The notes beneath the pieces were generated by a model. The model was given only the letters and a program-made list of their open reading frames with translations, was not told where the DNA came from and searched no databases. Below are positions 7,422 to 64,000 of a DNA stretch of 64,000 nucleotides, piece by piece. Location of the stretch: positions 537,001-601,000 of the forward strand of contig NC_087390.1 in NCBI RefSeq assembly GCF_963675165.1, given 5' to 3'. This stretch comes from Halichondria panicea (Eukaryota; Porifera; Demospongiae; Suberitida; Halichondriidae). The translations under genes and the position numbers were made by a program. The stretch's first letter is position 1; the number at the start of each line of letters is the position of its first letter.

Positions 7422-10400
7422 CTACCAAATAAACACAATTCTTCGTCTGACATCAACGTACTCGGGACATGTGACAATGTTCTTTTTTGTATTCCTAGAA
7501 GTTCCGAATTCTTTCAGTGTTTTGTTTTCCAACAGCCCCCTGACAATTTGGGAGTAGTCGGTGATCTCAGCATTGAGGTGAAACACCTCTAGAGTCTTGT
7601 TCTTGGCTAACACATTACCGACAGCTTCAGCCTCTTCAGTGGTATCAGTGTACGGTATAAAATCTGAAACGTACAGACGGAGTATTAGGTGTTTAACTGT
7701 ATTGTTTTCTCCCAATGCTTCCAAGGCGGGTAGTAGCTCCATTGGCAACGACGTATCAACCCAATGTAGTTCAATAAATTGTAGAGTTGTATTAAGTTGA
7801 AACATTTGGGCCAGTCCTAAATAATCAAGCGGTTCACCATAACTCATAATAATAGGTGAAATAGTTAGCTTAGTTAGACTTGTGTTAACTTGCAGTCCCT
7901 GCATTAAATGACTCGGGCTACTTTTGAAATTCCTATAACACAGTGTCAATTCCTCTAGAGATGTGTCAGTCTGTAGACACTCACCAATAGCTTCATCAAA
8001 ATCGCAGTCAAGGTTACATGTAAGTTCAAGGCTTTTAATGGAATGTAATCGATTGTCTTTGAGAGAACGTAAAACTTCACAGGCATTATCAAGACATAAC
8101 AAAGTTAGTGATTGCAAGTGCTGGGGGGTACAGAAATATTCAAATTGGCCCATTTCACTTTGGATATCGAGTTCTTTAAGTATCGGACAATTGAGTAGAG
8201 TACTAAAAAGCTGCTCAGATTGTGCGGGGGTCAAGTTAACACGGGAAGAGCATCGCAGATATTGTAAGCTTAGTTTCCAGTGGCTTAATATTGAAATTAA
8301 GTTTCTGATACTAGACTCTGAAAAAACCTCATTGTCTGTTGAAAATATTCTTTTTGCTTCGTTATCGGTAAACGAATGTTCAAACAGTAAATGTGGTAAG
8401 ATTTTCGTGTTGTTCCTTTTTAACTCAGTCACGTTCAATCCAATTGAAATACACCAATTATAAGCATCTGTGATGGGTAAGTCAATAATAGAAATTGCTT
8501 GTACAGCAATAGGATCTTGTACCAAATGTATCACCAACATTTCAATACTAGAATGTGCAATGAAGTCAGACAACAACTCTTCATCAACTGGCGATACTTG
8601 AGCACATTTCAAAACTTTCAAGCAGTGTTTTGGCTTCAAAATATCAAGTATTCGTATCACAGTGTCTCTTGAGATGCCAAAATCTAGCTCTACAACACTT
8701 AAGTTTGGAGATAGCTGTATAGTGTCAAATATTTTTAATACACATGGAACCTCAGGCCCAACAAATTCATTGTCAATAATATTACTGATAGTGACTCTTT
8801 CTAATTCTGGTAGTATCCTATCAGTGAGTGTATGCCAAGCAGATGGAATCTTGAATGTGGTAGACATTTTCAGATGGCTTACACTTAGAGTAAAAGAAGG
8901 CAAAACTTTGTTGATTCCTGCTAATATCATTGATCTATCCACATTATACACATTGTCATTAAACTCGAACATGTCCATTAGAGTTACTTTGAAATGAGCA
9001 GACGCTACAACATAACCAAGTGCAAACTGATCAATATCATCCTCATCATTTAGCGGTGGTTCATACAGCACATTACAATACAAGTCCTTCATGGCTTGCA
9101 CATTTTGGCTTTCATAGATCCACAGAATTTGATCACTTGAGAATTCACACATTCTCTCGGCTTTTGATGATCCTTCCTCATAGTAGTACAAGTAATTCGG
9201 AGTTGGAAGTACACACTGTGTCCATGGGTCATTCAGTTTAGTCAATCCAGCTAAAAACAATAAAATCATCTTGTATGATCCATCATTAGCCTTCGTTTCA
9301 AACAAAATAAATTGCTCGTGTGGGGTGTTATTTTTCCAGACGTAAAATGCAGCGAGGAACTCTTGAAGTGTTAGATGAAGGAAATTGTAAGATGGAGAAC
9401 TGTTTCTTTTCATTATGGATTTATATAAAGGATATACACTGTTCATGAATCCAAGTGTAGTGCTAGCATCAGCAATATCTTCTTTGAAGAAAACCAACTG
9501 TTGTTTTTCTTTCGTTATTCCATTGTACGCAATTTGGCAGAGCTTATCAAAATGTACCTGAAGTGACGAAGGTAACTCACTCAGCTCACCACTCCAATCA
9601 CTCTCTGGTTTGTCATGCAAATATCTTATAATCAAAACTTGAGAGTATGCAGTGTATAGTTCAGTTGTTGTGTTAGGAAAGATGCTATTGCTTTCGTCGT
9701 GGCATTCTCTGTAAACTTCAACTACAATTCTGGCATGAAGAGGGTTATACATTGCACTAGAGATACGTGGATTAGAGTCAATGTATTCACGTAGTTCTGG
9801 TGGAGCCCCATCTTTAATCATTAGATCAATATACTCAAGAATTTTTTCTGAAGAAAATCCCAAGATTTCAATGAATTGATCAATTCTTGAACTACACTGA
9901 GTAGCAGGTAGATCACATGCCGCCCAGGGTCTAGTAGTAACAAGAACAGTACAACTAGAAAGAAGGTCTCCGGTTATTAGTTTCATAAAAATAGAATCTT
10001 TTTGTCTAAGGAATGGTGGTAACTCATCTAGGCCTTCCAAAATGAAAAGAATACCGTGCCCATGATGATTTTGTATGGTAGTAGTAGCAACAACATTTTC
10101 AGAAGCATCAATATTTTCACATTGAAATAGATCAACTAATTCTACAGCTTCCTGAACATTCTTATCTCGAAGTCGGAGCAATACAACGAGGGAGTAATCT
10201 GTCCAAACCTTACCATTAGCCCATTGTCTGCACAGTTCCCATGACAAAGTCGTCTTACCTCCTCCAGGAGCCCCTTTAATTACAATTAGCTTAGAGAACT
10301 TGCCCTCTACTTTGGAAGCTATCTGGTCCATTGTAATTCTCTCTCTAGGAAATCTATGCAGCTTGCCTTGAACTATTAGTGACCAAGACTTTTCCATTTC

Positions 10401-13400
10401 CTTTCTTGATAAATGTTTACTTACATCCGCACATTCTAGCTTAACAAAGTCTTTAACACACTGGAGAGGATATTTGTCATCAGCAGGGAGGGATCTTGTA
10501 TCGTAAATACTAGTTAAGTATGCTCGATAAATTCCTATTGCTTCATCTGGTTGAATGATGGAACGAATATCGGATTTGGATTCTATAATAATAGAATCAT
10601 CATGAAGCAAAGTTAAGGCCCTTCAATAAAGTAATTATAAACGTATAAAGTGTGGATACACATACCTCTCTAAATAGGAACTATCCCCCAAACTTTCTTA
10701 CATGATAAAGCGTACAGATATGTGTCTTTTATCCATCACTGTACACACAAACTAATAATAATTATTATGTAAGGCAATTCACTCACTGGTTGGTTCACGA
10801 GTCGTTGTAGACAATTTTTGCTTCTGAGATGGCCCAAGCGAAGTATGGTCATCTGAAAGTAAGTAATTGTTTGCATGGTAAAATACTGTTTTTGAGTATT
10901 TTTCAATGCTGGTGGCTGTGTCCTCTTTTCCCAGACTGCGGACAATAGTTAGAAGTGCTTGAAATGTCGCTTCTTTGGGTTTCCTTCTCTTCCAGTACTT
11001 CAAGCATAGATGTACTGCAATTTGTGTGCCCTCACTGGCTTTTGCTCGCGTTACATCACCGTTTTCATGAGGGTTTAGTGATATTGCGGCAGCAAGAAGT
11101 GTAGCACTATCAAAATAAGCAGCCAAATGAATCAGATCTTCATCTTTTATCACCGTATCTAGCATTGAATTTCCCAAGCTTTCTGTGAATCCAGCACCAC
11201 CTAATGAACAATATTATCTTTCACAGAGTCAGTATAATTATATATTATTATTATGTCATGTATCACAAATAATAATGCAGGTTTGGTACAGCGTTGTGCT
11301 ATAATACGGTAGGCACATATAAATAAATGATAAACCAAAACACAAATGGAAACAAAACATTCAATAATTGACCCTCCAAACTATTCTACCGCAATAGATT
11401 CAGCGTTACTATCCTGAGCTGTACGAATATTTAAAACACGAAAATTAATATTAAAAATAATGAGTATTTCATACGAATTTGCACCAACGAATATTACTCG
11501 CTATATAGCTATATACGGTAGGTACACTAAGTCTACTTGCTGAACTACGTACACTATAGTAACAATTGTAGAAATTATGGTAACTAATTATGATAATGGG
11601 CAATGGTGACCGAAGCTATTAAGATCAATGCCCGTGGTTCCATATTAATTTTATCAAGTAATATAAGAAATAATTGCAAGCCCTCCAAACTAAATAAATA
11701 CAGTACCACTCCAAATAAAGCTGTGCTTCCATCCCAGTACATAAACAATGTATAGCAATCTTTCAAAGGTGCATGTCTTTTATTCTATCTATCACCACTC
11801 ACACAAACTACCGATTAGCTAACTCACTGGTTGGTCCAGGAGTTGTTGTGGACAATGCTTGCCTCATAAATGGCCCAGGTGGAGTATCGTCATCTGAAAG
11901 TAAGTAATATTATTGTTTGCTACACAATGGACTGAAGTACAATAGTACTCCATCAGTTACATTCCTGACTAGGCTGGTAAACTATCCATTCATATACAAC
12001 TTCCATCAATACAAACTACCGATTAGCTAATTAAGGTGATTCACTCACTGGTTGGTTCAGGATTCATTGTAGACGTATTTGTTTTAGATGGCCCAGGTGA
12101 AGTATCGTCAACTGAACGTAAGTAATTGGATACTATATAATTATATACAAAAGTACATAATTATAGTAGTATACCTGATGTGGTCAACTACGTATATACC
12201 CATGCGTTCACATACCTAAGTCTATCCATAGAAATGCTTATAGTGTGGTCGAGGTTAGCCTCATCACTATTCATACCTGTACATGCCTTCTCTATAGCCT
12301 CAGCGACATCATTCCGTTCAACTGTTGGTGCTCTGAGACTCTGACATATTTCAGAATAGGTGAGAAGGCCAGTCTTCAAGCGAACAGCCAGCACTTCACA
12401 TAGACGAATTTGATTATCTCGATGTTTATCGCTGATATTATTAAGGGTGTCAAAACCTAATCCCAGATCAAGTCCCAGGTTGAACCAGTTTCCAGCGGCT
12501 TTTATCAGGTTCTTGTAAACAGAATTCAAATCATCGAGAGTAAGAATTGAGCCTACAAAAATTACCAGTGAATGGTAAGTGAATGGCACACACATGGTTT
12601 AAGCATACTCTATAAAAAACTGACAGCAGTTTGTACAAAGAGACTGCTTACCAAGCGTTGGTCCAGGGTTTGCTTCAACATCTCCTGACTGTAACAGTAA
12701 GCGGAATATCAGTAACAGTATATACAGACTGAGAGTGGGGGGCCGATTAGAGCTCTGAACTCTCACTTGGAACTGGGTCGGCTTTTCTTGAGTATCAAAA
12801 ACTAAAAAACACGAGTGACGTTTATAATTATTGTGGCAGTAAATATTCATTTGATTACCTGATGTGGTTGAGTTCCATTGTTTCCGAGGGTTCCATCTCA
12901 CCAAGCAGGCAGTGATGAGTGAGTAGCAGGTGATAAGCACAGCTGACAGAATGAGAACGGTCAGTGCACTCCCCCTCCATCCCAGCTCACAAGGAAACAC
13001 TCCGGTCCAACTCAAGTCAACCACAGGGCAAACAGGACGTGGGGGAGCTGTGTAGAGTTACATAAATATATTCATGTGCGGTGACATCACAATTGTGGTC
13101 ATGACTCCGTGAATACCAAGAATGCACTAATGCCTACTGTATAGCGGGTAATCTTCGGGGGACAAAATATTTGTGGTTCAGGAATAATTATTAAGACATT
13201 TCGTAGGTAATATTTTCGTGGTTGAACTTGCAAAGGTAGGCAAGGTCGCTTCATTCATGGATAAAATATTCATTCAGGCCTTCAACCACGGAAAACCAAA
13301 AATATTTTGTCCCACAAAAATCACCCTCTATATGGTATTTAAAACTGACCCTTTAAGTATAATTACATTGTGGCCTATGCCCCGTATAATAATTATGCTC

Positions 13401-14484
13401 TGTATAGTCGAGTAAGCGCTAATAATTCAGTTTCTACGGTAGACTACTACAAACTAGCACAGTGACACTCTCTAGCTTCCTAGATCTCTGTTGACCAGTA
13501 AGCAGTGCACCAAGAATGCTTCCACCTCTGTATGCAAGAGTAAAACATACAATTAACTTTTCTTCTTCATTCGCCACGTGATACAATAAACCCCGAAGTA
13601 GCCACACCCAGATTGGCATAAGCACCTACAATATAAAGCTGGAGTAGTGTCCATATTATATTTTCTACACATAAAGTTCGGTACTGCAAAACATTCAATT
13701 GAGTAAACTGTGGTCTGTTCTGGGAAGTATTGCTAATTAGTATACTGATGACTATCAAGTGGTGACCAATACAGGGCAAATTCTGTTACGTACTGTAGTT
13801 TAACACTTTTACTCTTATCTACTCTTGACTATAAATACACATGTAGCTGTAACTTAGTCTCATGGACCAGCCGATATATCATATCGTCTAGCAAATTACA
13901 CATGAGCTACTTGTGTTGTGCAGCTGTCTAAGTGACTGTTTGCATTGATAAGTGGTTAGTGGTTAGAGGACGGATGTGAAACCATATAATTAAAGCTAAG
14001 CCTGCAGCTGTGCAGTTTCACAACTTACTACAGTCAAACACTTATCAACCACTTAGAGCGCCACGACATTTGTGGCACGGTCAACACAACTCTGTACGGT
14101 GAAATTGGCCAGACTCTCTTTCAGGGTTTGGGTCAGCGAGACTATAGCTGTAACTTTCCTCTAAGTACACATAATTATAGTTATATGTTATGTGGCCTAT
14201 GCCTCGTAAATGCTCGGTATAATTATACCAAATTAAAATGTATGATAAGAAATGTTATGCAATTATTGGTGAGTATGCTTCACTGACTTACAGGAAAAAG
14301 TTTGTAAGAAGAGTATGTATCTGATGGTGACCATAATGAGGTAGAGTTGGTAGAGGACAGGGGTGATCAACACAGAGGCAAGGCTGGCTCTGAGCTGCCA
14401 ACTAGGCTTACGGAAAACCAGGGTAACATCGTCGTCCAAATCATTTGAGAAATAACGGGCATGTCTCTGAGATGTCATCTTCAT
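7422..14484 (-). CDS. NLR-A: membrane module-2A-Death-Death-NACHT-LRR receptor
   Basis: Eight minus-strand exons, all phase-1 junctions with GT-AG sites: 14292-14484, 12859-13047, 12652-12801, 12277-12552, 12049-12111, 11828-11893, 10787-11200, 7422-10582. They sum to 4512 nt, 1503 aa. Residues 1-174 hold three hydrophobic segments and end in the 2A motif GDVEANPG^P. Death domain about 178-269 (WFNLGLDLGL...LTYSEICQSLR); two short Thr/Pro linkers; a second Death-fold exon about 313-450, unique to this copy (ATFQALLTIVRSLGKEDTA). NACHT follows with Walker A GAPGGGKTTLS (about residue 550), Walker B ILFILEGLDELPP and sensor VTTRPWA, then a winged-helix part (YNFLHLTLQEFLAAFYVW) and ribonuclease-inhibitor-type LRRs to the C-terminus. 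Predicted cytosolic innate immune sensor released by 2A skipping. No defect seen. Confidence 0.85.
12659..12685 (-). other. 2A ribosome-skipping motif in NLR-A
   Basis: The codons for GDVEANPGP match the canonical D(V/I)ExNPG^P signature of 2A peptides, which make the ribosome skip the Gly-Pro bond. It lies at the 3' end of exon 12652-12801, directly after the hydrophobic stretch LSLYILLLIFRLLLQS. The residues after the skipped bond are PTLG, then the Death domain. Upstream product 174 aa, downstream product 1329 aa. Confidence 0.92.
13135..13337. mobile_element. MITE, TATAGCGGGTAA family
   Basis: A roughly 203-bp palindromic element in intron 2 of NLR-A. Left end TACTGTATAGCGGGTAATCT, right end the imperfect complement CACCCTCTATATGGTA, with inner arms around ACAAAATATTTGTGG and CCAAAAATATTTTGTCC. 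The same family is at 52541-52749 and 56559-56746. Confidence 0.7.
13338..14291. other. NLR-A first intron, remainder
   Basis: AT-rich intron sequence between exon 1 (14292-14484) and exon 2 of NLR-A. It includes a short imperfect inverted repeat around GATAAGTGGTTAG (about 13950) and CTTATCAACCACTTA (about 14042). I see no gene. Confidence 0.5.
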
Positions 14485-21700: not shown

Positions 21701-22993
21701 TTCTTTCGGATAATAGCATAAATATTTTGGGAATAATCAGTATCTTCACATTGAAATAGATCAACTAATTCTACAGCTTTCTGAACATTCTCATCTCGAA
21801 GTCGGAGCAACACAACGAGAGAGTAGTCTGTCCAAACTTCACCATTAGCCCATCGTCTGCACAGTTCCCATGACAAAGTCGTCTTACCTCCTCCAGGAGC
21901 CCCCTTAATGACAACTAGTTTAGAGAATTTGCCCTCTACTTTGGAAGCTATCTGGTCCATTGTGATTGACTCTCTAGGAAATCTATCCAGCTCGCCTTTA
22001 ACTTATTAGTGACCAGGACTCTTCCATTTTCTTTCTCGATAAATGTTTACTTACATCCGCACATTCTAGGTTAACAAAATGCTTAACACACTGGAGAGGA
22101 TATTTGTCATCAGCAGGGAGGGATCTTGTATCGTAAATATTAGTTAAGTATGATCGATAAATTCCTATTGCTTCATCTGGTTGGATGGTGGAACGATTAT
22201 CGGACTTGGATTCTACAGTATAAAAGAATAATCATGAAGCAAAGGTAATAATACAGTGGAATCTTCAATAATGGGCCCTCCAAACTAAGTAAACAGTGAG
22301 AAATACAACAAATAGGACTGCGCTTCCACCCCCACACTTTCAGTCTTACATGAACAAATGCAGCAATCCCTGAGATGTGTCCTTTTCTCAATCACCGTGT
22401 ACACATACAAACTACCGATTAGCTAACTCACTGGTTGGTTCAGGAGTCGTTGTGGACAATTTCTGCCTCTTAGATGGCCCAGGTGAAGTATCGTCATCTG
22501 AAAGTAAGTAATTGGATGCTATAGTATTGACTGGAGTACATAGTATTACGTTCGTGTTGTAGTAAAATTATTCATTACACTAAGTACTCATAGAACATGG
22601 TCGTAAGTTAGGCTCATCATTATTCATACCTGCACATGCATATGCCTCCTCAATAGCTACAGCGACATCATTCCGATCAACTGTTCGTGCTCTGAGACTC
22701 TGACATATGTCAGAATAAGTGAGAGGGCCAGTCTTCAAACGAACAGCTATCATTTCACGTAGACAGTCCTTATTCCTGTGATAGTCATCTTTTATATCAT
22801 CAAGGGTGCCATGACCTAATCCCAGAGCGAGTCCCAGGTTAAACCAGTTTCTTGCCGCTTTTATAACTTTCTCATAAACAGATTGCAAATCACTGAGCAT
22901 CAGAATTGAACCTACGCAGTAAATGGCAAGTTCTGTCATTTAAACTAATACTATATCATCATAATCATAAGGAGACACCCTCTTACCAAGCGT

Positions 22994-23020
22994 TGGTCCA
23001 GGGTTTGCTTCAACATCTCC
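22994..23020 (-). other. 2A ribosome-skipping motif in NLR-B
   Basis: Codons for GDVEANPGP, identical in protein to the other copies, at the end of exon 22987-23136, preceded by LLLIFRLLLQS and followed by TLG and the Death domain. Kept even though the gene is frameshifted further downstream. Confidence 0.9.
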
Positions 23021-23373
23021 TGACTGTAACAGTAAGCGGAATATCAGTAACAGTATATACAGACTGAGAGTGGGAGGCCGATTAGTGCTCTGAGCTCTCA
23101 CTTGGAACTTGATCGGCTTTTCTTGAGTATCAAAAACTAGAAAGTAAGAGTGACGTTTATAATTATTGTGGCAGTAAATATTACCTGATGTGGTTGAGTT
23201 CCATTGTTTCCGAGGGTTCCATCTCACCAAGCAGGCAGTGATGAGTGAGTAGCAGGTGATAAACACAGCTGACAGAATGAGAACGGCCAGTGCACTCCCC
23301 CTCCATCCCAGCTCACAAGGAAACACTCCGGTCCAACTCAAGTCAACCACAGGGCAAGCAGGACGTGGGGGAG

Positions 23374-23976
23374 CTGTGTAGAGTTACATAAATATGATAT
23401 TCATGTGCTGTGACATCACAATTTTGGGTTATGAGATTCCGTGAATACCAATTAAGCAATACACTAATGGCTGTTTCCTTAAGTGTAATTGTAGCCCGTA
23501 ATATGAGTAGAGTACAAGGGAGTATTATGAGACCTCTATAAAATTAATGTTTCTGACTTGCAGTAATCAGCTAAATAGCCTGTTCACTAACTACTGTATG
23601 GTCAATAGGCTTTGCATGTAAGCAAAAAAAATTAGTGACAGTGCTTTGTTTACAGCTAAATAAATGCTAGCATTTAGTGGTATGGTCAATAGGCTTTGCA
23701 CAAAATATTATATGCCTATATAATTCTGCCTGTATACAGTTTTAACAAATACCTAATGAATTTTACTTGGCACCCACACTTAAATTTGTTAACAAACTGT
23801 TGTGATATCTCTGTCAACACAAGCATACAACTACAAATTTCTTTTGGAAAAAATACTAGAGTTAATATATAAGAGACTATTAAGAATAGCTGAAGCACTT
23901 CTCATAATTGGTTCTGTCTCTACTCTATGACAAGAAATGTTATGCAATTATTGGCGAGTATGCTTCACTGACTTAC
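23374..23976. other. NLR-B first intron
   Basis: AT-rich intron, homologous to 33941-34639 of NLR-C (shared GTAATTGTAGCCCGTAATATG and AATTTTACTTGGCACCCACA). NLR-C has an extra roughly 100 bp near 34255-34370. I see no gene in either. Confidence 0.6.
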
Positions 23977-24169
23977 AGGAAAAAGTTTGTAAGAAGAGTA
24001 TGTATCTGATGGTGACCATAATGAGGTAGAGTTGGTAGAGGACAGGGGTGATCAACACAGAGGCAAGGCAGGCTCTGAGCTGCCAACTAGGTTTATGGAA
24101 AACCAGAGTAACATCATCGTCCAGATCAATTGAGAGATAACGGGCATGTCTCTGAGATGTCATCTTCAT

Positions 24170-32400: not shown

Positions 32401-34832
32401 TGCCTTGAACTATTTTTGACCAGGAATCTTCGATTTCCTTTCTCGATAAATGTTTACTTACATCCGCACATTCTAGGTTAACAAAGTCTTTAACACACTG
32501 GAGAGGATATTTGTCATCAGCAGGGAGAGATCTTGTATCGTAAATACTAGTTAAGTATGATCGATAAATTCCTATTGCTTCATCTGGTTTGATGGTGGAA
32601 CGGTTATCTGACTTGGGTTCTACAGTATAAAGAATAATCATGAAGTGAAGGTAACAATACAGTGGAATCTTCAATAATGGACCCTCCAAACTAAGTAAAC
32701 AGTGAGAAATACAACAAATAGGACTGCGCTTCCACCCTCAAACTTTTAGAGTCTTACATGAACAAATACAGCAATCCTTGAGATGTGTCCTTTACTCTAT
32801 CACCACTCACACAAACTACCGATTAGCTAACTCACTGGTTGGTCCAGGAGTCGGTGTGGACAATTTCTTCTTAGATGGCCCAGGTGAAGTATCGTCATCT
32901 GCTATAATTATATATACAATTGACTGAAGTATACATAAAGATAATATAAGTGTTCGTGACGAGGTGGACTATCCATTCACATAGTTAAGTGCTGTTGACT
33001 ATTCATAGAAATGCTTATAGTGTGGTCTATATTGCTAGTAGCCTCACAATTGTCCTACATATCTAAGTTACGTTCCCGGCTTTAGGCTGCGGTATACTGC
33101 ATAGAAATGCTGGTCAAGGTTAGCCTCATGACTATTTATACCTGTACATGCCTTCTCTATAGCCTCAGCGACATCATTCCGATCAACTGTTGGTGCTCTG
33201 AGACTCTGACATATGTCAGAATAGGTGAGAGGGCCAGTCTTCAGGCGAGCAGATATCATTTCACGTAGACAATCCTTGTTCCTGCGATACTCATCTTTTA
33301 TATCTTTGAGGGTCCCAGGATCTAATCCCAGATCAAGTCCCAGGTCGAACCAGTCTCCAGCAGCTTTTATCAAGTTCTTATAAGCAAGATTCAAATCACC
33401 GAGAGTCAGAATTGAGGCTACAAAAATTACAAGCAAATAATAAGTACACAATGTTATACACGTGGTTCGTATATGTTCTGTGATGAGCAACTTGTATTAA
33501 TAATTATATACATACACATGGTTTAGACGGCTTACTAAACGTTGGTCCAGGGTTTGCTTCAACATCTCCTGACTGTAACAGTAAGCGGAATATCAGTAAC
33601 AGTATACACAGACTGAGAGTGGGGGGCAACATCAGTCGATTAGTGCTCTGAACTCTCACTTGGAACTTGGTCGGCTTTTCTTGAGTATCAAAAACTAAAA
33701 AGTAAAAGTGATGTTTATAATTATTGTGGCAGTAAATATATAATTGATTACCTGATGTGGTTGAGTTCCATTGTTTCCGAGGGTTCCATCTCACCAAGCA
33801 GGCAGTGATGAGTGAGTAGCAGGTGATAAGCACAGCTGACAGAATGAGAACGGCCAGTGCACTCCCCCTCCATCCCAGCTCACAAGGAAACACTCCAGTC
33901 CAACTCAAGTCAACCACAGGGCAAGCAGGACGTGGGGGAGCTGTGTATAGAGTTACATACATAATGATATTCATGTGCTGTGACATTACAATTGGTAATG
34001 GGTCATGAGATTCCGTGAATAGCAATTAAGCAATACACTAATGGCTGTTTCCTTAAGTGTAATTGTAGCCCGTAATATGAGTAGAGTACAAGGGAGTATT
34101 ATGAGACCTCTACAATTAATGTAGTTAATGTCTGACTTGCAGTAATCAGCTAAATAGCCTGTTCACTAACTACTATAATTATGGTCAATAGGCTTTGCAT
34201 ATAAGCAAACAAATTAGTGACAGTGCTTTGTTTACAGCTAATGCTAGTATTTAGTGTTTAAAGTGGTTTGGGTATTGAGACAGGGGGGTATTACTGACAC
34301 CATTGCTAGTAATTAATTTAAACCCTAATTGGCTGTTCTAACATAATATCTGATAATAAAATAATTATAGTGATTATTCTGCCAATATACAGTTTTAACA
34401 TTAATACCTAATGAATTTTACTTGGCACCCACACTTAAATTTGGTCAATTAACAAACTGTTGTGGAATCTCTGTCAACACAAGCATACAACTCAAAATTT
34501 CTTTTGGAAAAAAATACTAGAGTTAAATTATTAATAAGACTATTAAGAATAGCTGAAGCACTTCTCATAATTGGTTCTGCCTCTACTCTATGACAAGAAA
34601 TGTTATGCAATTATTGGTGAGTATGCTTCACTGACTTACATGAAAAAGTTTGTAAGAAGAGTATGTATCTGATGGTGACCATAATGAGGTAGAGTTGGTA
34701 GAGGACAGGGGTGATCAACACAGAGGCAAGGCAGGCTCTGAGCTGCCAACTAGGTTTATGGAAATCCAGGGTAACATCATCGTCCAGATCAATTGAGAGA
34801 TAACGGGCTTGTCTCTGAGATGTCATCTTCAT
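29432..34832 (-). CDS. NLR-C: membrane module-2A-Death-NACHT-LRR receptor
   Basis: Six minus-strand exons with phase-1 GT-AG joins: 34640-34832, 33752-33940, 33536-33694, 33142-33417, 32836-32898, 29432-32619. They sum to 4068 nt, 1355 aa, all open. Residues 1-177 are the membrane module (three extra residues, LML, in exon 3) ending in NPG; the released receptor is 1178 aa. Death domain about 181-272 (WFDLGLDLGLDPGTLKDI), a Ser/Thr/Pro linker, then NACHT (GAPGGGKTTLS, ILFILEGLDELPP, VTTRPWA), winged helix (YNFLHLTLQEFLAAF) and LRRs. The LRR holds a longer variable loop near 29690-29760 than any sister copy, with an internal duplication (YVEYTPF / YFEYTPY). The C-terminal tail after RIVFI differs from NLR-A/D because the 3' spacer is rearranged. 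Confidence 0.88.
33543..33569 (-). other. 2A ribosome-skipping motif in NLR-C
   Basis: Codons for GDVEANPGP, preceded by LSLCILLLIFRLLLQS (one Y to C change) and followed by TFT and the Death domain. Upstream product 177 aa. Confidence 0.92.
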
Positions 34833-43200: not shown

Positions 43201-45195
43201 ATGTTTACTTACATCCGCACATTTTAGGTTAATAAAGTCTTTAACACACTGGAGAGGATATTTGTCATCAGCAGGGAGGGATCTTGTATCGTAAATACTA
43301 GTTAAGTATGATCGATAAATTCTTATTGCTTCATCTGGTTGGATGGTAGAACGATTATCAGATTTGGAATCTACAGTATAAAAGAATAATCATGAAGCGA
43401 AGGTAATAATACAGTGGAATCTTCAATAATGCATGGGCCCTCAAAACTAAGTAAACTGTGAGAAATACAACAAATAGGACTGCGCTTCCACCCCCAAACT
43501 TTCAGAGTCTTACATGAAAAAATGCAGCAATCCCTGAGATGTGTCCTTTACTCTATCACCATGCACTCACACAAACTACCGATTCGCTAACTCACTGGTT
43601 GGTCCAGGAGTCGTTGTGGACAATTTCTGCCTCTTAGATGGCCCAGGTGAAGTACCATCATCTGAAAATAAGTCTATTAAACAATTGTGTATTTAAGTAC
43701 ATAATTTACGTACGTTCGTGACTAGGTTATAAACTATCCATTCACATAATTATACTCATAGAAATGCTTTTAGCATGGTCGTAAGTTAGCCTCAATACCT
43801 GTATATTCCTTCTCTATAGCTTTAGCGATGGCATCTCGTCTAACTGTTGGTGCTCTGAGACTCTGACATATTTCAGAATAGGTGAGAGTGGCAGTATTCA
43901 AGCGAGCTGCTAGCATTTTCCGTAAACAGGTTTCATTATCTCGATGTTCATCACCAATATTATCGAGGGTGTCGGGGCTTACTTTCAGCTTAAGTCCCAG
44001 GTTGAACCACTTTTTGGCGGCTTTTATCAATTTCTCGTAAACAGATGGCAAATCATTGATAGTCAGAATGGTGCCTATACAACAATTACAAGCAAATGAT
44101 AAGTGCAATGTGCAATGTCAACACATGGCTTATACATGCACACTCTATGAAATAGCTGACGAGCAACTTGTATTATATACGCATACATAAAGAGACACTG
44201 CTTACTAAACGTTGGTCCAGGGTTTGCTTCAACATCTCCTGATTGTAACAGTAAGCGGAATATCAGTAACAGTATATACAGACTGAGAGTGGGGGGCCGA
44301 TTAGAGCTCTGAACTCTCACTTGGAACTGGGTCGGCTTTTCTTGAGTATCAAAAACTAAAAAGTAAGAGTGACGTTTATAATTATTGTGGCAGTAAATAT
44401 ATAATTGATTACCTGATGTGGTTGAGTTCCATTGTTTCCGAGGGTTCCATCTCACCAAGCAGGCAGTGATGAGTGAGTAGCAGGTGATAAGCACAGCTGA
44501 CAGAATGAGAACGGCCAGTGCACTCCCCCTCCATCCCAGCTCACAAGGAAACACTCCGGTCCAACTCAAGTCAACCACAGGACAAGCAGGACGTGGGGGA
44601 GCTGTGTAGAGTTACATAAATATATTCATGTGCTGTGACATCACAAGTGTGGGTCATGAGATTCCGTGAATACCAATTAAGTAATACACTAATGGCTGTT
44701 TCCCATTAATTATGAGTAGAGTACAAGGGAGTATTATGAGACCTCTATAAAATTAATGTTTCTGACCAATTAATGTCAGCTAAATAGCCTGTTCACTAAA
44801 CCATAAATATTCATGTGCTATATTCATGTGCTGTGTCATCACAAGTGTGTGTCACGAGATTCCGTGAATACCAAGCAATGCTGTTTAAAACTGACCTTTA
44901 TATTATAATGTGGCCTATGCCCCGTAATATGCTCTGTATAATACCAAAGTGTATGATAAGAAATGTTATGCAATTATTGGTGAGTATGCTTCACTGACTT
45001 ACAGGAAAAAGTTTGTAAGAAGAGTATGTATCTGATGGTGACCATAATGAAGTAGAGTTGGTAGAGGACAGGGGTGATCAACACAGAGGCAAGGCTGGCT
45101 CTGAGCTGCCAACTAGGCTTAGGGAAAACCAGGGTAACATCGTCGTCCAGATCATTTGAGAAATAACGGGCATGTCTCTGAGATGTTATCTTCAT
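40225..45195 (-). CDS. NLR-D: membrane module-2A-Death-NACHT-LRR receptor
   Basis: Six minus-strand exons, phase-1 GT-AG joins: 45003-45195, 44413-44601, 44206-44355, 43799-44074, 43596-43661, 40225-43370. They sum to 4020 nt, 1339 aa, open throughout. Start MKITSQRHARYF; membrane module 1-174 ending NPG; released receptor 1165 aa. The Death domain (about 178-269, WFNLGLKLKVSPDTLDNI) is the most divergent of the set. NACHT has GAPGGGKTTLS, ILFILEGLDELPP and VTTRPWA. It is mosaic: its Walker A-B segment (FQCENIDASKNVVATT) is like A/C, while the following part (LLPASTVLVTTRPWAVCDLP) is like B/F. LRRs run to the end (IVFIWWYV). Confidence 0.88.
44213..44239 (-). other. 2A ribosome-skipping motif in NLR-D
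   Basis: Codons for GDVEANPGP after LSLYILLLIFRLLLQS; followed by TFS and a Death domain starting TILTINDL. Upstream product 174 aa. Confidence 0.92.
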
Positions 45196-60404: not shown

Positions 60405-60833
60405 GAGTAGACTCTCGCTATTCCAGCTCCCTGAAGTACGGCCACCTCGATATACCGGCCATTTGGCTTGGCACGGAATGCTAGCTATATGTTTACTGCA
60501 CAAAACTCGACCTGAAGTACGGCCACTCGCTATTCCGTTTACCGGCCAGTGCTGGCTGTCCCAAACAAGGTTTTCAATGTACTTTAATACGTGTATTACG
60601 GCCGGATATGACGTTTTGGGTGTGGTTTAGCAAATAAAATTGAATTACACTTAAATAGAGAACAAAATGATTCATTATCCTACATTATCCTCGAGACAAG
60701 AACCGCAAAAGTAGTCATTAGATTCGAGGTAAGGTCGTTTTTAAGCCGCGGCTATTTACTGAGATGCAGCCACCTCGCTATTCCGGCCAAGCTGCATGGT
60801 CCCAAGGGTGACCGGATTAACGAGAGTCTACTG
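60405..60833. mobile_element. Pogo/Tc1-type MITE inside NLR-F
   Basis: 429-bp element with ends GAGTAGACTCTCGCTATTCC and, at the other side, the complement CAGTAGACTCTCGTTAATCC, flanked by TA (60403-60404, 60834-60835). Sister NLRs give the empty site (CCTCATAGTACACATAAGG). Inside, CTCGCTATTCCG and TACCGGCC motifs are repeated. TIR sequence and TA duplication fit pogo-like (Tc1/mariner) elements. Non-coding. Confidence 0.88.
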
Positions 60834-63133
60834 TACACATATATATAAGGAGTTGGAAGTACACACTGTGTCCATGGGTCATTCAGTTTAGTCAATCCAG
60901 CTAAAAACAATAGAATCATCTTGTATGATCCATCATCAGCCTTTGTTTCAAACAAGAGTAACTGGTCGTGTGGGGTTTTATTTTTCCAGATATAAAATGC
61001 AGCGAGGAACTCTTGAAGTGTTAGATGAAGGAAATTGTAAGATGGAGAACTGTTGCTTTTCTTATGTAAAGGATGTACACTGTTCATGAATCCAAGTGTG
61101 TTAGCATCAACAACATCTTCCTTGAAGAAAACCAATTGTTGTTTTTCTTTTGTTATTCCTTTGTACGCAATTTGGCAAGGCTTATCAAAATGTTCCTGAA
61201 GTGATGAAGGTAACTCACTCAGCTCACCACTCCAATCATTCTCTAAACATCTTTTAATCAAAATTTGAGAGTATTCGGTGTATAGTTCAGTTGTTGTGTT
61301 GGGGATTATGCTATTGCTATTCTCATGGTTTTCTCTGTACACTTCAACTACAATTCTGGCATGAAGAGGGTTATACATTGCACTAGAGATACATGGATTA
61401 GAGTTAATGTATTCACGTAGTTCTGGTGGAGCCCCATCTTTGATCATTAGATCAATGTATTCTTGAATTTGTTTGGAAGAAAAACCTAAGATTTCAATGA
61501 ACTGATCAACTCTTGAGCTACAAGTAACAGGTAGATCGCATACAGCCCAGGGCCTAGTGGTAACAACCACGGTACTAGCTGGCAGAAGACGTCCGTCTAT
61601 TAGTTTCTTAAATATAGAGTCATTTTCTCTAAGAGATGGTGGCAACTCATCCAGTCCTTCCAAAATGAAAAGTATGCCCTGCCCATGATTCTTTCGGATA
61701 ATAGCATAAATATTTTTGGAATAATCAGTATCTTCACATTGAAATAGATCAACTAATTCTACAGCTTTCTGAACATTCTCATCTCGAAGTCGGAGCAATA
61801 CAACGAGGGAGTAATCTGTCCAAACTTTACCATTAGCCCATCGTTTGCAAAGTTCCCATGACAAAGTCGTCTTACCTCCTCCAGGAGCCCCTTTAATGAC
61901 AACCAGTTTAGAGAATTTGCCCTCTACTTTGGAAGCTATCTGGTCCATTGTGATTGACTCTCTAGGAAATCCATCCAGCTCGCCTTTAACTATTTCTGAC
62001 CAGGATTCTTCAATTTCCTTTCTTGATAAATGTTTACTTATACATCTGCACATTCTAGATTAACAAAATGCTTAACACACTGGAGAGGATATTTGTCATC
62101 AGCAGGGAGAGCTCTTGTATCGTAAATACTAGTTAAGTATGATTGATAAATTCCTATTGCTTCATCTGGTTGGATGGTGGAACGATTATCGGATTTGGAT
62201 TCTACAGTATAAAAGAATAATCATGAAGCGAAGGTAATAATACAGTGGAATCTTCAATAATGGGCCCTCCAAACTAAGTAAACTGTGAGAATTACAACAA
62301 ATAGGACTGCGCTTCCACCCCCAAACTTTCAGAGTCTTACATGAACTAATGCAGCAATCCCTGAGATGGGTCCTTTACTCTATCACCACTCACACAAACT
62401 ACCGATTAGCTAACTCACTGGTTGGTCCAGGAGTCGTTGTGGACAATTTCTTCTTAGATGGCCCAGGTGAAGTATCGTCATCTGCTATAATTATATATAC
62501 AATTGACTGAAGTACATAAAGATAATAATATAAGTGTTCGTGATGAGTTGAACTATCCATTCACATAGTTAAGTACTGTTGACTATTCATGGAAATGCTT
62601 ATAGTGTGGTCTATATTGCTAGTAGCCTCACAATTGTTCTACATATCTAAGTTACGTTCCTAGCTTTAGGCTACGGTATACTGATATTTATCAATAGAAA
62701 AGGTCAAGGTTAGCCTCATGACTATTCATACCTGTACATGCCTCCTCTATAGCCTCAGCGACATCATTCCGTGCAACTGTTGGTGCTCTGAGACTTTGAC
62801 ATATGTCAGAATAGGTGAGAGGGCCAGTCTTCAAGCGAGCAGATATCATTTCACGTAAGCAGTCCTTGTTCCTGTGACACTCATCTTTTATATCTTTGAG
62901 GGTGCCAGGATCTAATCCCAGATCAAGTCCCAGGTCTAACCAGTCTCCAGCAGCTTTTATCAAGTTCTTGTAAACAAAATTCACATCACCGAGAGTCAGA
63001 ATTGAGCCTATAAAAATTACAACCAAATGATAAGTACACATGGTCATACACATGGTTTATGCAAGCATGTTCTCTGAGGAGCAATGTCATTGTGTATATT
63101 ATGTATCATAAGGAGACACCGCTTACCAAGCGT

Positions 63134-63160
63134 TGGTCCAGGGTTTGCTTCAACATCTCC
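63134..63160 (-). other. 2A ribosome-skipping motif in NLR-F
   Basis: Codons for GDVEANPGP at the end of exon 63127-63276, same context (LLLIFRLLLQS before, TLG after). Confidence 0.9.
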
Positions 63161-64000
63161 TGACTGTAACAGTAAGCGGAATATCAGTAACAGTATATAC
63201 AGACTGAGAGTGGGGGGCCGATTAGTGCTCTGAGCTCTCACTTGGAACTTGATCGGCTTTTCTTGAGTATCAAAAACTAGAAAGTAAGAGTGACGTTTAT
63301 AATTATTGTGGCAGTAAATATATAATTGATTACCTGATGTGGTTGAGTTCCATTGTTTCCGAGGGTTCCATCTCACCAAGCAGGCAGTGATGAGTGAGTA
63401 GCAGGTGATAAGCACAGCTGACAGAATGAGAACGGCCAGTGCACTCCCCCTCCATCCCAGCTCACAAGGAAACACTCCGGTCCAACTCAAGTCAACCATA
63501 GGGCAAGCAGGACGTGGGGGAGCTGGGTAGAGTTACATAAAATTAATATATTCATGTGATGTGACATCACAATTGTGGTCATGAGATTCCGTGAATACCA
63601 AGCAATGCTGTTTAAAACCGACCTTTATATTATAATTATGCAGATTATATGATGTAGCCTATGCTTTGTAATATGCTCCGTATTAATATGCTCGGTATAA
63701 TTATACCAAAGTGTATGATAAGAAATGTTATGCAATTATTGGTGAGTATGCTTCACTGACTTACAGGAAAAAGTTTGTAAGAAGAGTATGTATCTGATGG
63801 TGACCATAATGAAGTAGAGTTGGTAGAGGACAGGGGTGATCAACACAGAGGCAAGGCTGGCTCTGAGCTGCCAACTAGGCTTAGGGAAAACCAGGGTAAC
63901 ATCATCGTCCAGATCATTTGAGAGATAACTGGCATGTCTCTGAGATGTCATCTTCATGGTTCTGTCAGAAGACCATGCAACTGTGCAGCTCCAAGATTCA

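Follow-up and report, generated by a model that had tools for sequence, protein, structure and literature searches.

StopGo/2A elements join a membrane-type leader to Death-domain receptors in genes of the sponge Halichondria panicea

The window analysed here, a stretch of 64,000 nucleotides (nt) of the sponge Halichondria panicea (contig NC_087390.1, positions 537,001 to 601,000 of the forward strand), contains several copies of an NLR-type receptor gene in which three exons code for a hydrophobic leader that runs in one frame through a StopGo/2A element into a Death-type domain. Each of these genes is probably a natural StopGo polyprotein, with a membrane-type leader as the first product and a Death-domain receptor as the second. 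What is observed is the sequence itself, the open frames, the joins in the NCBI gene models, the conservation of the leader and the linkage between the membrane module and 2A.

The gene called NLR-A lies on the minus strand from 14484 to 7422 and has eight exons. All its joins are GT..AG, and the leader introns are in phase 1. Leader exon 1 (14292..14484, 193 nt) codes for residues 1-64 with the first hydrophobic helix at about residues 36-60, and the NCBI model P0001 matches it letter for letter. Leader exon 2 (12859..13047, 189 nt) contributes the Cys loop CPVVDLSWTGVFPCELGWRGS, the second helix (residues 95-113) and the basic stretch RWNPRKQW, and leader exon 3 (12652..12801, 150 nt) a hydrophilic spacer, an L-rich element and the StopGo octapeptide DVEANPGP (12659..12682), whose skip site falls between Gly 12664-12662 and Pro 12661-12659. 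The Death-type exon (12277..12552) comes directly after the 2A exon and is followed by the small linker exons 5 (12049..12111) and 6 (11828..11893), an exon with a second Death domain (10787..11200; Pfam PF00531) and a NACHT and leucine-rich repeat (LRR)-like exon (7422..10582) with NACHT matches in sister models. The frame is open for 1503 amino acids (aa), of which the first 174 run up to the NPG of GDVEANPG^P, and P-TLG and the Death-type exon follow. The initial annotation had described a three-exon leader ending in GDVEANPG^P right before a Death-type domain at 12652-14484, which is exactly the span of NLR-A exons 1-3; the same structure was found in NLR-A, NLR-C and NLR-D, with leaders of 174, 177 and 174 aa, and their full open frames of 1503, 1355 and 1339 aa were reproduced.

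Intron 2 (12802..12858, minus strand) is 57 nt long, in frame and without a stop, and may be retained. It is in frame and stop-free in 18 of 20 loci retrieved from the C14 cluster, to which the window belongs (exon edges set by homology), and out of frame in L017 and L022. Since the NCBI model P0030 includes it as coding sequence, some leaders may be 16-21 aa longer. When it was treated as coding, the ratio of nonsynonymous to synonymous rates (dN/dS) in 14 C14 copies was 0.28. Regulated intron retention at 12858-12802 and in the copies is a possibility.

The other copies in the window are also on the minus strand, and each carries DVEANPGP. The NLR-C leader (33536..34832) has exons at 34832-34640, 33940-33752 and 33694-33536, its octapeptide at 33566-33543 and a frame of 1355 aa. 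The NLR-D leader (44206..45195) has exons at 45195-45003, 44601-44413 and 44355-44206, its octapeptide at 44236-44213 and a frame of 1339 aa. Copy B (leader 22987..24169; exons 24169-23977, 23373-23185 and 23136-22987; octapeptide 23017-22994) and copy E (leader 63127..63957; exons 63957-63765, 63522-63334 and 63276-63127; octapeptide 63157-63134) present the same leader and 2A, and homologous joins put a stop in the body at residue 363 in B and at residue 345 in E. Over the whole of copy B (24169-19113) the leader and 2A are intact and the body frame is broken, the NACHT/LRR part being split over two frames (open reading frames, ORFs, 22002-19702 and 19796-19113). In copy E (63957-58313) the NACHT exon is truncated (its ORF ends at 60752) and is skipped by the NCBI model P0027, in which the letters of the copy E leader are joined to a Death / ZU5-like / Death body; this model connects the Death exon to the ORFs 60305-59889 and 59320-58313, with a weak ZU5 match (E 0.021). 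Since P0027 bypasses the NACHT exon of copy E for other sequence, the leader has been joined to another body.

Regarding the StopGo element, the permissive octapeptide was defined as (D/G/C/N)(V/I)ExNPGP, and all the variants found (DVEANPGP, DVEVNPGP, DIEANPGP, NVEANPGP and DVESNPGP) fit this definition. A narrower 2A codon pattern gave 48 matches in the 131-Mb genome and the wider DxExNPGP pattern 116 (positions were available for 100 listed matches of these), compared with 0 for each reversed-pattern control; a chance origin of the motifs was rejected on this ground. The octapeptide is preceded by LLLQSG, LLLLSG or LLLQCG, and by eye this agrees with the L-rich class, in which (A/S/C)G stands ahead of p12 = D. 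In the accessible part of a recent survey, L-rich upstream classes end in (A/S/C)G before D, and one of them was tested for activity (PMC12846837). Over the stretch PPTLSL..QSGD.E.NPGPT, an alignment of 17 proteins that are close paralogues and carry leaders of two kinds shows full invariance at 24 of 29 columns and near-invariance at another 4. The third hydrophobic segment, for which the initial annotation considered the consequences of membrane insertion, is really this upstream 2A element, matched by eye to the LLLLSG-like class in the accessible part of that survey (PMC12846837). At no more than about 25 residues from the skip site, it should not yet have emerged from the ribosome tunnel and so cannot insert before skipping; the L-rich stretch should affect topology only in a read-through product or after release.

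Two further octapeptides, L040 and L041 (C2:5771131 and C3:1931384), lie in retrotransposon-like ORFs (endonuclease-like or PHD-like by eye), and cellular and mobile-element 2As both seem to exist in this genome. A retrotransposon origin of the C14 copies was rejected because Pfam scans of ten models revealed no endonuclease or reverse transcriptase family.

The linkage of the membrane module to StopGo extends beyond the window. In searches of the genome, where counts of large families are lower bounds, an exon 2 of the type found on C2 retrieved 47 copies (37 on C14, seven on C2 and one each on C6, C7 and C16). All 47 have a permissive octapeptide on the same strand 171-248 bp downstream, located by pattern searches except for three read from the sequence (NVEANPGP in L028 and L032, DVEVNPGP in L030); thus, no membrane module without StopGo was observed among the 47 copies found. 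Four 2A copies on C2 (7798392, 7825389, 7827358 and 7829624) have no exon 2 match just upstream and are perhaps partial tandem copies. Moreover, a 2A lies no more than 1.5 kb upstream of 46 of the first 49 matches to the Death exon (69-96% identity). This check covered 70 of 150 matches (the first 63 and 7 chosen ones), 60 with 2A, five of them more than 300 bp away, and 10 without, and the rate quoted refers to the first 49. In 13 of 14 Death exons the first half contains no Met, so that translating this domain depends on the leader, on sequence from intron 3 or on a further 5' exon; only L013 (copy B) has a Met there, at residue 4.

Leader, 2A and body are in one frame in 11 NCBI models (P0001, P0002, P0021, P0026, P0027, P0029, P0030, P0032, P0033, P0035 and P0036). 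The models come from two protein searches, in which 18 of 25 and 9 of 12 matches were fetched, eight of the latter nine with leader and 2A; P0037, without them, was matched through its Death domain only. All 12 matches of the second search belong to H. panicea, as do the three of 25 that are named in the first. P0001 is LOC135347261 isoform X3 of H. panicea, matching NLR-A exons 1-7 letter for letter; LOC and isoform names of this kind are those of RefSeq-style NCBI models.

The bodies behind this cassette are diverse. P0029, P0030, P0032 and P0033 are NACHT genes, with PF05729 above the cut-off in P0029, P0030 and P0033, and the NACHT exon of NLR-A is homologous to those of the sister models. 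No Pfam LRR was detected in P0030 or P0033, which are repeat-like by eye only. P0026 and P0034 match Roc below the cut-off, and P0035 and P0036 have dynamin-type GTPase bodies. The initial annotation framed the cassette as a feature of NLRs; this was too narrow, as it precedes NLR, Roc-like, ZU5-like and dynamin-like bodies, and the leaders are exchangeable too. Concerning the Death domains, PF00531 covers residues 367-414 of P0001 (second domain), and a profile of seven sequences of the first Death-type domain matches the FADD death domain (positions 6-90, E 3.5e-4), while the top match in the same search is an engineered TPR protein over 24 positions only. Pfam Death matches three of the seven members of this profile, that of NLR-A not among them. 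The domain after 2A in the C2, C1 and C7 genes and in L007 gave no meaningful Pfam match and is termed CARD-like or Death-like by eye. For the leader, the only Pfam match was Commissureless, below the cut-off (E 0.024).

Other leaders occupy the same position. In P0021, P0035 and P0036, a fragment of an EHD GTPase domain stands in place of exons 1-2 and runs straight into exon 3. Residues 32-118 of P0036 match EHD4 (E 1.3e-22); as these 87 residues are a fragment only, the leader is not an EHD protein. Seven C14-type 2A copies have no membrane exon, six of them on C14 at 1.226-1.314 Mb and one on C13. The C13 copy (L029), read as DNA, shows the EHD fragment, and we infer that the six C14 copies carry it as well. 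A second long leader family begins with MG(I/V)xVELWRARIGLF. Its C5 type gave 19 matches (query residues 1-109 or 1-110), 17 stop-free and 18 with StopGo inside, and its C11 type seven, all stop-free and with StopGo, so that 25 of the 26 full-length matches contain the element. Death-type sequence follows 2A in all five loci of this family that were read (L036, L038, L042, L043 and L044); three of them are among the Death-exon matches, at 51-53% identity, and Pfam Death matches L036 below the cut-off (E 0.036). Within this family, the L036-L038 pair has a dN/dS of 0.46 and the L042-L043 pair one of 0.69. A three-helix leader on C1 (L001 and L002) has a dN/dS of 0.35, with a NACHT match about 1.8 kb downstream of 2A in L001. 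Furthermore, short leaders of the sea urchin type precede Death-like sequence (by eye) at L003, L007 and L008.

The comparison with the diverged cluster on another chromosome, C2, indicates which parts of the leader are maintained. The C2 genes have the same three phase-1 exons, of 226, 210 and 147 nt in the shorter of two models (a longer second exon is also possible) versus 193, 189 and 150 nt on C14. In exon 2, 35 of 52 residues are identical, with dN 0.27, dS 1.8 and dN/dS 0.15. In exon 1, 26 of 64 residues are identical and dS is saturated. In exon 3, the two clusters are alike, by eye, solely at LLLQ-GDVE-NPGP, where the codons differ synonymously. The low ratio in exon 2 and the retention of 2A with different codons thus indicate that the membrane part and the splitter are conserved at the protein level and the linker is not. 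This agrees with the claim, made from the window alone, that the upstream partner is a conserved protein of about 175 aa and not a short leader such as the 26-aa sea urchin element; as C14 and C2 have retained the three exons in common, what precedes 2A is a conserved protein of membrane type and no short signal. A short signal peptide as the whole story was rejected because the membrane module is kept between the clusters.

Within C14 the leader is unusually uniform. The proportion of synonymous differences (pS) among 14 copies is 0.041, 0.021 and 0.043 in exons 1-3 versus 0.22 in the adjoining Death exon, and dN/dS is 0.88, 0.50, 0.71 and 0.65, respectively. These values refer to 14 of the 20 C14 loci, after dropping L025 (equal to L012 in exons 1-4), L017, L022, L026 and L027 (altered exon edges) and L028 (diverged). 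Median nucleotide distances in 16 loci (120 pairs) are 0.036 in exon 1, 0.016 in exon 2, 0.042 in intron 2 and 0.040 in exon 3, jump to 0.38 just inside intron 3 and are 0.16 in the Death exon. Distances in intron windows are inflated by indels, so the argument rests on the synonymous rates. In the alignments, by eye, similarity breaks within about a dozen bases past exon 3, the upstream regions fall into two classes, and the first 50 nt or so of intron 1 are near identical in the seven copies aligned. Synonymous-site constraint as the sole cause of the low divergence was rejected, since the start of intron 1 is near identical as well, a sign of recent exchange or of a common origin. The correlation between head and body distances is weak (r 0.24, 136 pairs). 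The low divergence of the leader is likely to come from recent exchange or spread of a head cassette. L012 and L025 (C14 at about 549.7 and 779.3 kb), identical in exons 1-4, could be a recent large duplication or an unmerged haplotype.

Other features of the window were also noted. A Death and NACHT-type remnant at 56314-55209 has no leader-exon match nearby. CA/CT-rich arrays recur between the NLR units (4.4-7.0, 17.8-18.6, 27.2-28.7, 38.2-39.9 and 47.4-50.1 kb), and their long ORFs are probably spurious. A short tail, VRTVNKFMQVVVRGGGHI..NLIQNFVNMQ, follows the arrays on the plus strand at about 7.0, 18.7, 39.9 and 50.1 kb as part of the duplicated unit; we take it to resemble the end of a serine carboxypeptidase. 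Cyclophilin-like exons (by eye) are on the minus strand at 15.0-17.3 kb.

Skipping, topology and localisation are predicted here from the sequence. In the NLR-A leader, hydropathy peaks at residues 36-60, 95-113 and 149-169. The numbers of K+R and D+E are 6 and 4 before helix 1, 2 and 2 in the loop, which has two Cys, and 6 and 2 after helix 2. By the positive-inside rule this is consistent with a leader whose N-terminus is inside, its loop outside and its C-terminus inside, and the charge pattern thus agrees with the earlier suggestion of an N-in topology with an external Cys loop. Exons 1-3 would therefore yield a membrane protein of about 174 aa with a cytosolic N-terminus, helix 1, an outer loop with two Cys, helix 2 and, on the cytosolic side, a spacer of about 60 aa that closes with the L-rich 2A. 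With Gly174 in the P site, both helices would be out of the ribosome tunnel and the L-rich stretch still inside it, and the Gly-Pro bond would be skipped. Once the membrane protein is released, the ribosome that made it, probably still close to the endoplasmic reticulum (ER), would continue into the Death-domain receptor, which would start at Pro without a signal and so stay in the cytosol. Without skipping, the receptor would be anchored at the membrane or sent to the ER, as described for the 26-aa sea urchin element in the accessible part of PMC4981915. The leader would then be a functional partner kept nearly identical across many receptor genes with different bodies; our guess is that this small protein is a membrane docking or regulatory partner of its receptors.

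Several observations weigh against this proposal. The AlphaFold model of the leader has helices at 29-63, 87-116 and 151-165 and is poor overall, with a mean predicted local distance difference test score (pLDDT) of 50.5. Helix 1 includes an Arg residue, and its hydrophobicity is no more than moderate (peak 1.85). The dN/dS values within C14 mean weak constraint on the leader, although recent exchange or spread of the head makes them a poor guide. The membrane exons are dispensable, as seen in the 2A copies without exon 2 and in the EHD leaders of L029, P0021, P0035 and P0036. Most of the weaker Death-exon matches probably lack 2A; many of the other 80 are on C1, which has four wide-pattern places among the 100 listed. 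The NCBI models are predictions, perhaps partly ab initio. Moreover, in HeLa cells 2A activity can fail when the protein ahead of it is translocated; in the accessible part of the same study, 30-40 residues are given for the exit tunnel and 65-70 for the ribosome-translocon complex, and unsuitable residues 28-48 from the peptidyl-transferase centre can block a 2A in this position (PMC2978324). In the sponge leader, the residues 28-48 from the skip site are a hydrophilic spacer, and helix 2 ends 61 residues before that site on C14 and 69 on C2 (shorter model), which makes the arrangement appear compatible with skipping once both helices are out of the tunnel.

An unlikely alternative, yet the one that survives best, is that the leader is only a targeting device, the efficiency of StopGo setting the balance between a cytosolic receptor and one fused to the membrane or ER, and the released leader having no job. 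In the accessible part of the sea urchin study, the 26-aa SpNLR2A6 recodes with about 80% efficiency in vitro and sends its read-through product into the exocytic pathway (PMC4981915); this genome has short leaders of such a type as well (L003, L007), and leaders can be swapped (P0021, P0035, P0036). Nevertheless, a signal needs hydrophobicity only, yet the Cys loop and helix 2 are kept at a dN/dS of 0.15, and a two-helix module of 174 aa far exceeds a signal. It is quite improbable that 2A is inactive or inefficient in the membrane context, with a membrane-tethered NLR as the product, like the transmembrane NLR models of other sponges. The failures in HeLa cells (PMC2978324) would favour it, as would the transmembrane NLRs that the accessible part of PMC12909245 reports in Dysidea avara and, by citation, in Amphimedon; on the other hand, no other part of exon 3 is kept as well between clusters and leader types as the octapeptide with its L-rich element, a pattern that neutrality would not produce. 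Hardly credible is a gene-model error in which exons 1-3 form a gene of their own, or a non-coding head, and translation of the receptor begins at another place, e.g. at the in-frame ATG in intron 3 of NLR-A or, in copy B, at the ATG in the Death exon, for although much of the gene-level evidence is prediction, A, C and D stay in frame from exon 3 into exon 4, NCBI models make this join, and 2A lies close upstream of nearly all the first 49 Death-exon matches.

More tentatively, StopGo might be a general gene-building device of innate immunity in this sponge, in which dozens of death-fold receptor genes carry exchangeable membrane-protein heads that are split off in translation. On this reading, receptor and membrane subunit would form a translation-coupled pair made side by side, with the partner kept uniform by exchange between copies and the receptor bodies free to diversify. 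One animal has 116 DxExNPGP matches, many of them in death-domain genes with substantial conserved upstream products, and if they are active, this would be a cellular polyprotein system coupling the synthesis of a membrane protein and an immune receptor.

Among known systems, one close parallel is SpNLR2A of sea urchin (Roulston et al. 2016), a 26-aa element that works as a signal sequence and was found in 14 of 87 NCBI entries, according to the accessible part of PMC4981915. As far as that part goes, both animals have StopGo before a Death-domain NLR, an L-rich element with DVExNPGP and a large NLR family. The sea urchin element is at the very N-terminus, whereas the sponge 2A ends at residue 174-177 after three exons and two helices, and the sponge leader is kept between clusters, common to several body types and replaceable by an EHD fragment. 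The short-leader genes L003 and L007 fit the SpNLR2A type better than the genes with leaders of 174-177 aa do. In viral StopGo/2A polyproteins (Li et al. 2026, PMC12846837, accessible part), the octapeptide is likewise in the permissive set and LLLQSG is of the L-rich class by eye, but the sponge genes are cellular, have introns and code for a membrane-type protein and a death-fold receptor. Non-LTR (long terminal repeat) retrotransposons share the octapeptide, and L040 and L041 resemble this class by eye; endonuclease and reverse transcriptase are absent from the Pfam scans of ten sponge models, whose bodies are Death/NACHT, Roc-, ZU5- and dynamin-like. In the open-licence literature we found no paper on StopGo in sponge NLRs, apart from a possible remark in work on Amphimedon NLRs; neither "2A peptide" nor "NPGP" appears in the accessible text of the Dysidea NLR paper (PMC12909245), and that of the H. 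panicea immune-repertoire paper lacks "2A-like" and "NPGP". 2A before NLRs is already known from sea urchin, and the layout as such has been described chiefly in viruses, with a shorter version in sea urchins; what is new is a long conserved membrane protein as the predicted first product, the constant StopGo link, the exchange of heads and the many body types. The transmembrane NLR models of Dysidea and Amphimedon (PMC12909245, accessible part) resemble the present genes in having hydrophobic helices in an NLR gene. Unlike them, H. panicea has 2A between the helices and the receptor, which is predicted to be cytosolic, and if this 2A is active, the transmembrane NLRs annotated in sponges may be two proteins.

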